Of a stretch of 46,158 nucleotides of DNA, positions 1 through 2,253 are shown piece by piece. This DNA comes from an uncultured Mucispirillum sp. Lineage in GTDB: Bacteria; Chrysiogenota; Deferribacteres; Deferribacterales; Mucispirillaceae. Position numbers and translations under genes: made by a program. The stretch is from positions 1-46,158 of the forward strand of contig CALVEY010000018.1 of assembly GCA_944326705.1 (NCBI GenBank). The letters run 5' to 3'. The first letter of the stretch is position 1, and each line of letters begins with the position of its first letter. Below the pieces are notes generated by a model that saw nothing but the letters and a program-made list of their open reading frames with translations, had not been told where the DNA came from and did no database searches.

Positions 1-269
1 TAGAATTGTATATAAAGTTGATAATAATATATTATATATTATTTCATGTAAAGGTCATTATGATTAATGATTTTAAATTATATTTATAAAAATACTTGAA
101 AAGTAACTTAATGTATTGTATATTATATTATGTGTTGCAGGACATAACATTTTAAAATTTTAAGGAAGGAACAAAAACTGCAATACTTAATTTTTAGATG
201 ACTGCTTATATAATTTATAAGTAAACCCCGTAAATGGACGGTGACCTAAATATATTTATGGAGGAAGTG
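1..269. other. AT-rich leader upstream of the integrase
   Basis: I see no gene here. The stretch is very AT-rich, with a purine-rich AAGGAAGG near 172-179 that resembles a ribosome binding site but is followed only by an eight-codon frame (ATG at 198). It probably holds the integrase promoter and may be part of an integrated element extending left of the window. No terminator or clear repeat was recognised. Confidence 0.4.
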
Positions 270-1583
270 ATGGTCACCACACGTGTCAAAGGTTCCACTA
301 TTTTTTTAAGAGTTAGCTACTATATAGAAGGTATAGCTAAGAATGTAGAAGTGTCTTCAAATTTTAAATGCAGCGGCAAGGGCAGTAGTGCATGTCGTTG
401 CGAAGGGCATAAAAATGCTATTGGTTTAGCTAATGCTGTTTCAACAGCGATTAATGATGGTTCGTTTGTTTTTGAGAAATTTTTTCCAACATCTCTACGA
501 GCATGCAAAAAATCTTCTACTGGTTTATCTGCTTCAAAATCATCAACAAGCAGTGCGAATAAAAGTGTGTTTGGCTTTGTAGCTGATACAATAACTGCTG
601 ATGATATTACAACTATTCTTAATGATAACTTTGCAAATTTTACTGATATCTGGTTTCAAAATGCTGATTTAACGAAAAGCACTAAACTTGGATATAAGAA
701 TATTATTAAAAATTATCTTAAACCGGCATTTGGAAGTATGTCATTAAAAGATATTAAGCTTTCCCACATACAAAGTTTTCAGAATAAACTTATTAACAAA
801 TGCAGTAATAAGTATGTTAATAATATTATTGGCTGTTTGTCATCTATTATGACTTATGCTGTGCAAAATGATATAATTGATAAAAACCCTTGTTCGCAAA
901 TCAAAAAGCAGAAAGTAAAATTAGTTACAGTAATGCCATACAGCAGTGAGGACATAGATAAAATATTAGAATATTCAACAGAATATTATCCAAACTGGAC
1001 TCTGTTTTTTGCTTTGGGACTGTTTGAAGGTTTACGAACTGGCGAAATATTTGCTCTTACATGGAATGATTTTAAACTACTTGATGAGCATAATAATCTA
1101 ATTCAATTAAAATCTAAAAAAGCTCTTGAAAGAGCTTTAAATGATGAGGCAGGAGGTAAATTATGTATTGAAATATCTAAAACTATCACATCAGGGGAGT
1201 TAAAAAACAGCACAAAAACAGATAGAACAAGAATACTTCCTATTCAATCAGTATTAAAGCTATACATAAGAGAGCATTTAGATAAATTTTATAATAACAA
1301 AATAGATTATCTTTTTTATAATAAAAGTGGAGAGTATTATAAAAGATACCCTTCAGCTGCCAGGAAGTGGAATAAAATTTTAGAAGCATGTAATATAGAG
1401 CACAGGCAGCTTTATAAAAACAGGCATAATTTTGCAATAAATTTTTTAAAGGCAGGTGCATCATATAACCAGACTGCCCGCATGCTTGGTCATACATCTT
1501 CTGCTATGGTGATAAACAGGTATGGAAATTATCAGGAGGATTTATCTAATATGGATTTTTTAACTAATCAAAAAGATGAGTGA
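270..1583 (+). CDS. Tyrosine recombinase / phage-type integrase
   Basis: Site-specific recombinase that would cut and rejoin DNA at an attachment site through a phosphotyrosine intermediate. From the ATG at 270 it is 437 aa. That start has GGAGG at 260-264 and is preferred over in-frame ATGs at 234 and 258. The N-terminal part looks like an arm-DNA-binding region, the middle (about 120-215) like the SAM-like core-binding domain, and the C-terminal part is the catalytic domain. Visible catalytic pieces are the Arg in GLRTGEIFALTW, the YKNRHNF box (the YxxRH form common in tRNA-targeting phage integrases, in place of HxxR), the His of MLGHTSS, and the likely nucleophile in INRYGNY near the end. 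It lies about 500 bp from the 3' end of tRNA-Ser, with a tRNA 3'-end copy between. That is the usual position for an island integrase next to its target. No excisionase or cargo is visible; the rest of the element would lie to the left. Confidence 0.9.
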   Translation: MVTTRVKGSTIFLRVSYYIEGIAKNVEVSSNFKCSGKGSSACRCEGHKNAIGLANAVSTAINDGSFVFEKFFPTSLRACKKSSTGLSASKSSTSSANKSVFGFVADTITADDITTILNDNFANFTDIWFQNADLTKSTKLGYKNIIKNYLKPAFGSMSLKDIKLSHIQSFQNKLINKCSNKYVNNIIGCLSSIMTYAVQNDIIDKNPCSQIKKQKVKLVTVMPYSSEDIDKILEYSTEYYPNWTLFFALGLFEGLRTGEIFALTWNDFKLLDEHNNLIQLKSKKALERALNDEAGGKLCIEISKTITSGELKNSTKTDRTRILPIQSVLKLYIREHLDKFYNNKIDYLFYNKSGEYYKRYPSAARKWNKILEACNIEHRQLYKNRHNFAINFLKAGASYNQTARMLGHTSSAMVINRYGNYQEDLSNMDFLTNQKDE

Positions 1584-1718
1584 GTATTTTCCATGAAGTG
1601 TAATAGAGTGTTATAAAGCCATGAAATAACGGTTAATTTTTAGTGCTCATGGGAAAATTATGGGAAAATGAAAAATTGTAAAATTTGTAAATTATTGATA
1701 TATAATAGAGAATAAGAG

Positions 1719-1736
1719 CGGAAAGAGAGAGATTCG
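1719..1736. repeat. Attachment-site-like copy of the tRNA-Ser 3' end
   Basis: The 18 bases here match 2084-2101, the last 18 nt of the tRNA-Ser gene, at 17 of 18 positions (A at 1730 against G at 2095). tRNA 3' ends are classical integration sites for tyrosine recombinases, and the integrase ends 136 bp away. I infer an att site between the element on the left and the structured repeats on the right. It is also the 5' boundary of structured repeat A. Confidence 0.65.
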
Positions 1737-1852
1737 CCTTCCAAAGTAAATTGTCCTAATTTACTTTTCCAGGCCTGCCATTTCACTGTCGCAGACATCC
1801 TGTCTGCTGTTCTTCGCTGCTCGCTCAGCGTTCAATGGCTTCAAATCCCTCT
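1719..1852. repeat. Structured repeat A (first of two tandem multi-helix elements)
   Basis: This folds by hand into nested helices. An outer stem pairs 1727-1736 with 1842-1851 (8 of 10 pairs). A hairpin pairs 1743-1752 with 1758-1767 around loop GTCCT. A stem pairs GCCATT 1777-1782 with AATGGC 1834-1839 and encloses hairpin GCAGAC/GTCTGC (1791-1796/1802-1807, loop ATCCT) and hairpin CGCTG/CAGCG (1815-1819/1826-1830). Repeat B has the same plan with compensatory changes. On the minus strand the loops read AGGAC and AGGAT. No protein-coding content is credible. Whether it acts as RNA or DNA is unknown. Confidence 0.7.
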
Positions 1853-1860
1853 GTAAATAC

Positions 1861-1893
1861 AAAAAAAAGGAACAGTTTTTGCTGTTGTTCTTT
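1861..1893 (-). terminator. Possible intrinsic terminator between repeats B and A
   Basis: Read on the minus strand, a short hairpin (AACAG at 1871-1875 pairing with CTGTT at 1882-1886) is followed by eight U from 1868 down to 1861. The stem is weak (5 bp, alternative pairings possible), but the U-run is good. It would end transcription coming through repeat B on the minus strand. Confidence 0.45.
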
Positions 1894-1906
1894 CATATAT
1901 ATAAAC

Positions 1907-2031
1907 GAGAGGGATTCGCCTTCCAAAATAATTTGTCCTAAATTATTTTTTCAGGCCAGGCTTTTTTCTTTCGCAAGCGTCCTGCTTGCTTTTCCTCCCG
2001 ATTTGGTCGGCGAAAAAAGCCTTCGAATCCC
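1907..2031. repeat. Structured repeat B (second tandem multi-helix element)
   Basis: Same architecture as repeat A, 182 bp further on. The outer stem GGGATTCG 1911-1918 pairs with CGAATCCC 2024-2031 (8 bp). A hairpin pairs 1925-1934 with 1940-1949 around loop GTCCT. A 10-bp stem pairs 1959-1968 with 2012-2021 and encloses GCAAGC/GCTTGC (1973-1978/1984-1989, loop GTCCT) and CCGA/TCGG (1998-2001/2007-2010). Its left end repeats the tRNA-Ser T-arm bases (GAGAGGGATTCG at 1907-1918). Stems differ in sequence from repeat A but stay paired, while loops and the CCTTCCAAA and CAGGCC linkers are conserved. Confidence 0.72.
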
Positions 2032-2045
2032 ACTAATATTTATAA

Positions 2046-2074
2046 AATAAAAAAACAGCTATAAAGGCTGTTAT
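2046..2074 (-). terminator. Intrinsic terminator of tRNA-Ser
   Basis: On the minus strand, AACAGC (2072-2067) pairs with GCTGTT (2059-2054) around a 7-nt loop and is followed by a U-rich tract. It lies directly 3' of the tRNA-Ser gene and separates it from repeat B. Confidence 0.65.
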
Positions 2075-2083
2075 TTTATTTTA

Positions 2084-2170
2084 CGGAAAGAGAGGGATTC
2101 GAACCCTCGGTGAGTTGCCCCACACACGCTTTCCAGGCGTGCCCCTTAAACCAGACTCGGACACCTTTCC
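2084..2170 (-). tRNA. tRNA-Ser(GGA)
   Basis: Reads UCC/UCU serine codons. The minus strand gives an 87-nt cloverleaf: 7-bp acceptor stem starting GGAAAGG at 2170, anticodon stem CACGC/GCGTG around loop CTGGAAA (anticodon GGA), the long variable arm expected of tRNA-Ser, and T-arm GAGGG-TTCGAAT-CCCTC. The discriminator base is G, as usual for serine, and CCA is not encoded. Its 3' end faces the integrase and is the presumed attachment target. Confidence 0.95.
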
Positions 2171-2253
2171 ATTATATTATTATATTATTTTAGAAGTATA
2201 TATGTATAAAAGAATAAGAAAAAAATCAAGCAGTAATTTATATATAAGTTAAA

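Follow-up and report, generated by a model that had tools for sequence, protein, structure and literature searches.

Two tandem structured elements lie downstream of a tRNA-Ser(GGA) gene in the window, i.e. the whole 46,158-nt stretch of DNA analysed here, a contig from a 2.39-Mb genome of an uncultured Mucispirillum sp. As judged by sequence comparison and covariance modelling, both elements (units A and B) are members of a widespread, previously undescribed family found in several bacterial phyla. Mobile DNA of bacteria classically lands at tRNA genes, but the elements known from these sites bring integrases and kilobases of cargo. The units described here are cargo-free and folded, occupy tRNA sites in several phyla and are fitted individually to each tRNA. 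We consider it probable that they are non-autonomous mobile elements of tRNA and tmRNA 3′ ends, which are processed as a folded strand, insert in the T-loop and duplicate ~20 bp of their target. If mobile as inferred, they would represent a minimal sequence-matched inserter, and discovery of the enzyme would test a new mode of target recognition; if they are host RNAs instead, they would constitute a large undescribed class of tRNA-linked RNA.

Units A and B are ~127 nt each and lie on the same strand as the tRNA gene. Read along the minus strand from the 3′ end of tRNA-Ser(GGA), a hairpin spacer is followed by unit B (2033 to 1907), a second spacer and unit A (1851 to 1725). The hairpin next to the tRNA has arms of 17 nt (94% complementary) and a loop of 7 nt; a comparable hairpin also precedes units of relatives, and a sister genome carries the same locus (L122, L164). 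A sequence-only reading of the window had placed two tandem repeats in register with the tRNA 3′ end, and the coordinates bear this out: the direct repeat joins 1722–1852 to 1904–2034 (74% identity, spacing 182), and the GATTCG boundaries end at 1736, 1918 and 2101, the last within tRNA-Ser (2171 to 2083, minus strand). Each unit starts with an inverted copy of the T-arm, GGGATTTGAA in A and GGGATTCGAA in B, and in unit B the tail pairs with this 5′ arm to form the outer stem P1. When the broad covariance model (R2) was run on the window with all filters off, the best match after these two units reached 12.9 bits.

Table 1. Features of the tRNA-Ser(GGA) locus in the window.
Feature	Position	Strand	Basis or remark
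Phage-type tyrosine recombinase	234..1583	+	PF00589 4e-16, PF14659 7.9e-14
A tail CGAATCTCTCTCTTTCCG	1719..1736	-	17/18 identical to tRNA-Ser 3′ end
Unit A, second structured element	1725..1851	-	R1 130 bits, R2 116.9 bits
A P5 hairpin, loop AGGAC	1743..1767	-	
A P4 hairpin GCAGACAGGATGTCTGC	1791..1807	-	
A P3 region CGCTGAGCGAGCAGCGAA, variant P3 hairpin	1813..1830	-	sequence, alignments
A 5′ arm GAGGGATTTGAA	1840..1851	-	exact T-arm complement but for one change
Spacer hairpin between units B and A	1861..1890		sequence
Unit B, structured element adjoining tRNA	1907..2033	-	model R1 143.6 bits, R2 124.5 bits
B tail CGAATCCCTCTC	1907..1918	-	direct copy of tRNA-Ser 3′ end from C56; sequence and tail test
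B P5 hairpin, loop AGGAC	1925..1949	-	
B P4 hairpin, loop AGGAC	1973..1989	-	
B P3 hairpin CCGACCAAATCGGGAGG	1994..2010	-	alignments
B 5′ arm GGGATTCGAA	2022..2031	-	exact reverse complement of tRNA-Ser T-arm TTCGAATCCC; sequence and own-versus-other tRNA test
Spacer hairpin between tRNA-Ser and unit B	2043..2083		inverted repeat with A/T tails; terminator-like on both strands
tRNA-Ser(GGA), host gene	2083..2171	-	ARAGORN and Rfam tRNA
Copied target sequence, tRNA-Ser(GGA) 3′ end	2084-2101	-	

The ~125-nt core of a unit folds such that P1 closes a junction of P2, which contains hairpins P3 and P4, and P5. Both copies in the window fold far better than their shuffles (z of −4.3 to −6.0). The compensatory changes reported for them, at positions 4 and 8 of hairpin 1 and positions 4/5 of hairpin 2, are present in the sequence, as is the exchange of the inner stem GCCATT/AATGGC in A for GGCTTTTTTC/GAAAAAAGCC in B. 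For the first covariance model (R1), built from 12 Deferribacterota units, counts were taken from a plain MAFFT alignment: 92.6% of cells pair, and both sides have changed in 24 of 41 pairs, compared with 15.5 in shuffles; when partners were slid by one column, pairing fell to ~50%. An alignment of 66 units gave both-side changes in 41/41 pairs and a covariation score of 0.60 (0.16 when shuffled and ≤ 0.11 when slid), counts that lean towards the R1 structure because this alignment was fitted to it. The covariation that the sequence-only reading had proposed to look for is overwhelming. P3, the most conserved part, has the form CC GA CC GAAUA GG GA GG; in unit B, it comprises a tandem G.A step flanked by two short stems and a 5-nt loop, and across the family its cap is a pentaloop, once a GAAA tetraloop.

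Non-canonical cells in the 66-unit alignment were strongly biased (G.A/A.G 286 versus T.C 6; G.T 57 versus A.C 27). From this bias, the folding strand is the tRNA-sense strand (minus in the window), which also fits the loops and the tandem G.A pairs, and the units consequently lie downstream of the tRNA in its reading direction. The hairpins first described with loops GTCCT and ATCCT are thus real, but had been read on the wrong strand; their loops are AGGAC and AGGAU. These alignments would be compatible with either RNA or single-stranded DNA as the folded strand and do not discriminate between the two. Compensatory change in every helix ruled out duplex arm-type integrase sites. It is hardly credible that the units are nothing more than tandemly duplicated tRNA-end fragments whose hairpins are incidental. 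Tandem units do have tRNA 3′ ends in common, and some arrays consist of identical repeats, but the cross-phylum alignment refutes this explanation, with homologous cores in several phyla and covariation in every pair, and single units occur with distinct flanks.

A blastn search followed by R1 identified relatives in 16 of 51 Deferribacterota species, at tRNA-Ser(GGA), Ser(GCT), Leu(CAA), Leu(CAG), Arg, Phe and tmRNA. P3 was also compared, as a DNA pattern, with 84,980 genomes. Many of the matches were chance occurrences in protein-coding DNA, and approximately half of all matches (e.g. in Rhizobiales and Streptomyces) lay within genes and were set aside. The rest were clear units, found in Treponema and other Spirochaetes, in Deltaproteobacteria-type MAGs, and in MAGs or isolates labelled Omnitrophota, Armatimonadetes, Nitrospira, Clostridia and Dethiosulfatibacter. 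The Deferribacterota-only model scored units outside the phylum at up to 104 bits; this far exceeds what the 19-base pattern alone could give. A second model detected units in 31 of 60 sampled Treponemataceae species (≤ 12 per genome) and in 11 of 198 genomes from the phylum of a Deltaproteobacteria MAG (Desulfobacterota-type; ≤ 17 per genome, with up to six in a row), and none in three genomes with only coding P3 matches. Carriers hold 1–17 copies per genome, in arrays of up to six units.

Rfam 15 at gathering score returned tRNA, tmRNA and SRP RNA alone, and scans at lax thresholds gave no credible match to a unit. The sequence-only reading had known no named family for the two repeats, and had listed a lack of further copies, a lack of covariation and a match to a known family as outcomes that would speak against it; all three fail, as many more copies were found at tRNA and tmRNA 3′ ends, both sides of the pairs have changed together, and Rfam gave no match. 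Among 5.39 million open-access papers searched, none was found to describe the family; an earlier description in subscription journals or preprints is possible. Repeat surveys that discard tRNA-linked clusters would have missed the family, and the removal of such clusters from a systematic stem-loop repeat survey (PMC2267715) may be why it was missed.

Pattern or model searches, and not proximity to a tRNA, brought up most of the loci. An intact same-strand tRNA or tmRNA gene is located ≤ 600 nt upstream of 143 of 191 distinct units; 17 units have a same-strand tRNA downstream, in tRNA clusters, and no opposite-strand tRNA or tmRNA was seen beside any of the 191. Several of the remaining units stand behind truncated 3′ halves of tRNAs, a pattern that would result if an island arriving later had split the gene, and a few lineages have units dispersed away from intact tRNAs. 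The hosts also include Arg, Phe, Thr, Pro, Met, Glu, Gln, Asn, Ala, Val, Gly and Lys tRNAs; once the Arg to Lys hosts turned up, a limitation to long-arm tRNAs (Ser, Leu and tmRNA) was dropped. Two lineages with unit-like cores away from intact tRNAs were seen in Deltaproteobacteria-type MAGs (L101, L129, L134, L150, L181, L211 and, likewise, L146, L155, L201, L215). Both have a short T-arm-like sequence alongside (GGAGTTCGAATC or GGAGCGAGAATCC) that is complementary to their own 5′ arm.

Three points go beyond the sequence-only reading: the opposite strand proves to be the functional one, members occur in several phyla, and the outer stem fits a particular tRNA. The last point was assessed with 64 units that are first in line after their tRNA, using tRNAs of other amino acids as the control. 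The 5′ arm had a mean exact complement of 11.4 nt to the 3′ region of its own tRNA versus 6.0 nt for control tRNAs, a value that includes the 2–4 nt expected with any tRNA because the T-loop GTTC is universal. The arm value was reached in 0 of 10000 permutations; some of the arm excess, namely the AA of GAA, may reflect a conserved feature of the junction. Likewise, the tail had 16.1 nt in common with its own tRNA versus 5.3 nt with other tRNAs. In 61/64 units, the intact tRNA is a better match for the arm than is the tail of the unit itself; among 46 tails that could be measured, 26 begin their copy at C56, right after the T-loop TT. By sequence, P1 is evidently tailored to the host tRNA, with a 3′ strand that copies the tRNA 3′ end and a 5′ arm that complements the T-arm.

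Units at different tRNAs of one genome have cores that are 82–95% identical, while arms and tails fit each local tRNA. For example, an Arg(TCT) unit with GGATTCGAA and a Lys(CTT) unit with GGAGTCGAA in one genome (G156) have cores that are 89% identical, and the cores of Pro, Glu and Ser units in another (G307) are 82–90% identical. Within a genome, cores at different tRNAs had a mean identity of 0.585; across genomes, cores at the same tRNA had one of 0.509. Every tRNA that bears near-identical cores keeps its correct 3′ end; this favours an origin of the duplicated end in the target, as with a target-site duplication, over one in the element. At Leu(CAA), G001 carries two units and G005 carries one between the same flanks, and the difference is exactly one spacer-core-tail unit. 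The extra unit has a distinct spacer hairpin and core of its own, and so did not arise as a recent copy of the unit beside it; deletion between direct repeats could instead account for the difference. Gain or loss of units is thus precise to one unit, and one core has spread among the tRNAs of one genome. An apparent empty site at tmRNA (G001 versus G007), at first taken as proof of insertion, is ambiguous, since its flank is itself an integrase-bearing element able to use either copy.

The comparative data support the earlier proposal that small, cassette-like structured elements are added at the tRNA 3′ end. Starting from the observed fold, tRNA specificity and target-matched arm and tail, the favoured explanation as mobile elements would work as follows. 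An element would consist of a spacer, often a two-way terminator hairpin in Deferribacterota and Treponema, and the ~125-nt core, of which one strand folds. The 3′ strand of P1 would be the duplicated tRNA 3′ end, mostly starting after T55 in the T-loop, and its 5′ arm the reverse complement of the T-arm. Insertion after T55 would duplicate ~20 bp of target, leaving the tRNA whole; the terminator supplied by the element would keep the tRNA expressed, and reinsertion into the new copy of the tRNA end would build tandem arrays. An enzyme provided in trans would act on the folded strand, be it single-stranded DNA or RNA, and the 5′ arm may help to find or fit the target. Counting against this explanation, no enzyme is linked to the units, no insertion was directly observed, and a few lineages lie off intact tRNAs; in addition, long conservation could be a sign of host function. 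We tentatively entertain the possibility that insertion is guided by nucleic acid: the 5′ arm of the folded strand would pair as a guide with the T-arm across the T55/C56 junction, and a trans-acting enzyme would allow the non-coding ~170-nt element to re-aim between tRNA species. Upon such insertion, arm and tail would both come to match the target.

Clustering of the ORFs at 68 loci yielded host-gene synteny groups alone, without a recurrent neighbour, and no integrase family recurs beside units across taxa outside Mucispirillum. These results bear on the idea that the units are passive satellites, i.e. minimal att-bearing circles integrated in trans by phage-type integrases (attP × attB) at tRNA 3′ ends, their structure serving integrase binding or cassette excision. 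We regard this as rather unlikely. A ~20-bp duplication of the tRNA 3′ end from the T-loop matches a known integrase subsite, and Islander describes T-loop attachment sites and tandem islands, each of which, unlike the units, has its own integrase (PMC4383910). In the window, a tyrosine recombinase gene (Table 1) belongs to a separate integrated element that abuts unit A, joining at its tail; it is not an integron integrase (16.5 bits versus a cut-off of 265), and integrase-bearing ends of this kind are joined to tRNA-Ser(GCT) itself in sister genomes, or to tmRNA in relatives. Conservative integration, however, swaps in the 3′ end of the element, yet near-identical cores occur at different, correct-ended tRNAs, and the compensatory changes argue for strand folding rather than duplex sites. 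Unit tails function as spare attachment sites for integrase-bearing elements in the window (1–1736) and at the tmRNA of G007; in relatives (L285 versus L286), such elements sit directly at tRNA-Ser(GCT) or tmRNA instead of on a unit tail. As spare sites for phage-like elements, the tails influence where islands land.

It is very improbable that the units are attC sites moved as cassettes by an integron integrase. The topology is the same, with a folded, bounded site and tandem cassettes at one anchor, and integron integrases are present in some Treponemataceae. However, TIGR02249 scored above cut-off in 11/31 unit-positive versus 9/29 unit-negative Treponemataceae and in 0/14 Deferribacterota genomes, most of which carry units. 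Boundaries appear to track the local tRNA rather than a fixed core motif such as the RYYYAAC/GTTRRRY terminal boxes. Similarly, reverse transcriptase (PF00078) was found in 8/31 unit-positive versus 6/29 unit-negative Treponemataceae and in none of seven Mucispirillum genomes, six of them with units; a retroelement with a resident reverse transcriptase was dropped for this lack of association. Phage and plasmid records held no similar DNA by blastn, and phage or plasmid cargo was dropped on these negatives; pattern scans of viral contigs gave one match and four matches, unit-like in two only.

An alternative without mobility, which we judge improbable, is that the units act as host or trans-acting RNA, i.e. 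as a tRNA trailer such as a CsrA-binding sponge with GGA loops, or a switch whose 5′ arm pairs with either T-arm or tail. CsrB repeats have GGA hairpin loops to which the unit loops may be likened. GGA is present in most hairpin loops of the units (65/90 in the P4 zone and 54/95 in the P5 zone; 119/185 in all), GNRA-like loops and tandem G.A pairs suit RNA, and three mutually exclusive T-arm copies look switch-like. Set against this are recurrent ACGA loops (15/185), which lack the GGA needed by CsrA, and a sponge would account for neither the tRNA-matched stem nor the spread within genomes. Moreover, the interval between tRNA and unit in Deferribacterota and Treponema is taken up by a terminator-like hairpin, leaving too little room for a promoter. 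An RNA role is disfavoured in these two groups, and less so in those taxa where the spacer is just 8–25 nt. The common but non-universal GGA loops would leave a CsrA-type protein in play.

How do the units compare with known systems? Like REP/BIME, BOX (with its modular inserts) and bacterial MITEs, they are short, non-coding, geneless, multi-copy and rich in stem-loops, with a self-complementary strand. They differ in being bound to tRNA/tmRNA 3′ ends in one orientation, with a ~20-bp target duplication, a tRNA-matched arm and tail, few copies (1–17) and one fold across phyla. Integron attC cassettes have in common with them a folded single-strand site and head-to-tail stacking at one anchor, whereas the units lack a cargo gene and any link to IntI, and their boundary sequence varies by tRNA. 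With islands, phages and satellites targeted to tRNAs by tyrosine integrases, they have in common the T-loop/3′-end site, tandem arrays and a tRNA 3′-end direct repeat at both borders. In contrast, the units are < 200 bp, have a conserved folded core and no integrase (that in the window belongs to an element found alone elsewhere), and pass between tRNA species, each of which keeps its own 3′ end. Group II introns, other retroelements and IS110 bridge-RNA elements likewise combine a structured core with a target-complementary stretch, but the units have one short guide-like arm and a long target duplication; they neither encode nor are associated with a reverse transcriptase, and no splicing signals were identified.

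Related modules were also observed. The genome of the window contains dispersed intergenic structured repeats (L093/L302, L094/L301, L096/L303, L097, L098, L296, L297, L298, L299, L300) built on the P3 module, in the order stem, CCGACYGAATARGGAGG, short A-rich bulge and stem, with GCGAGYGTTTTTTRCGAGGA preceding. None of these repeats was seen at a tRNA or had an Rfam match; their P3 module is also inserted in some tRNA units (L010, L013, L014). In L011, L013, L021 and L022 (genomes G001, G005 and G007), a 117-nt multi-hairpin insert replaces the AGGAC loop of P4 and is 97–100% identical across genomes as well as across units at Ser(GGA) and Ser(GCT). Its own loops are ATCCT, so the insert resembles a folded piece of similar kind in inverted orientation. 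Finally, HicA-like and Fic-like toxin-type frames, recognized by eye from the sequence, lie just past the last unit in L010 and L011.
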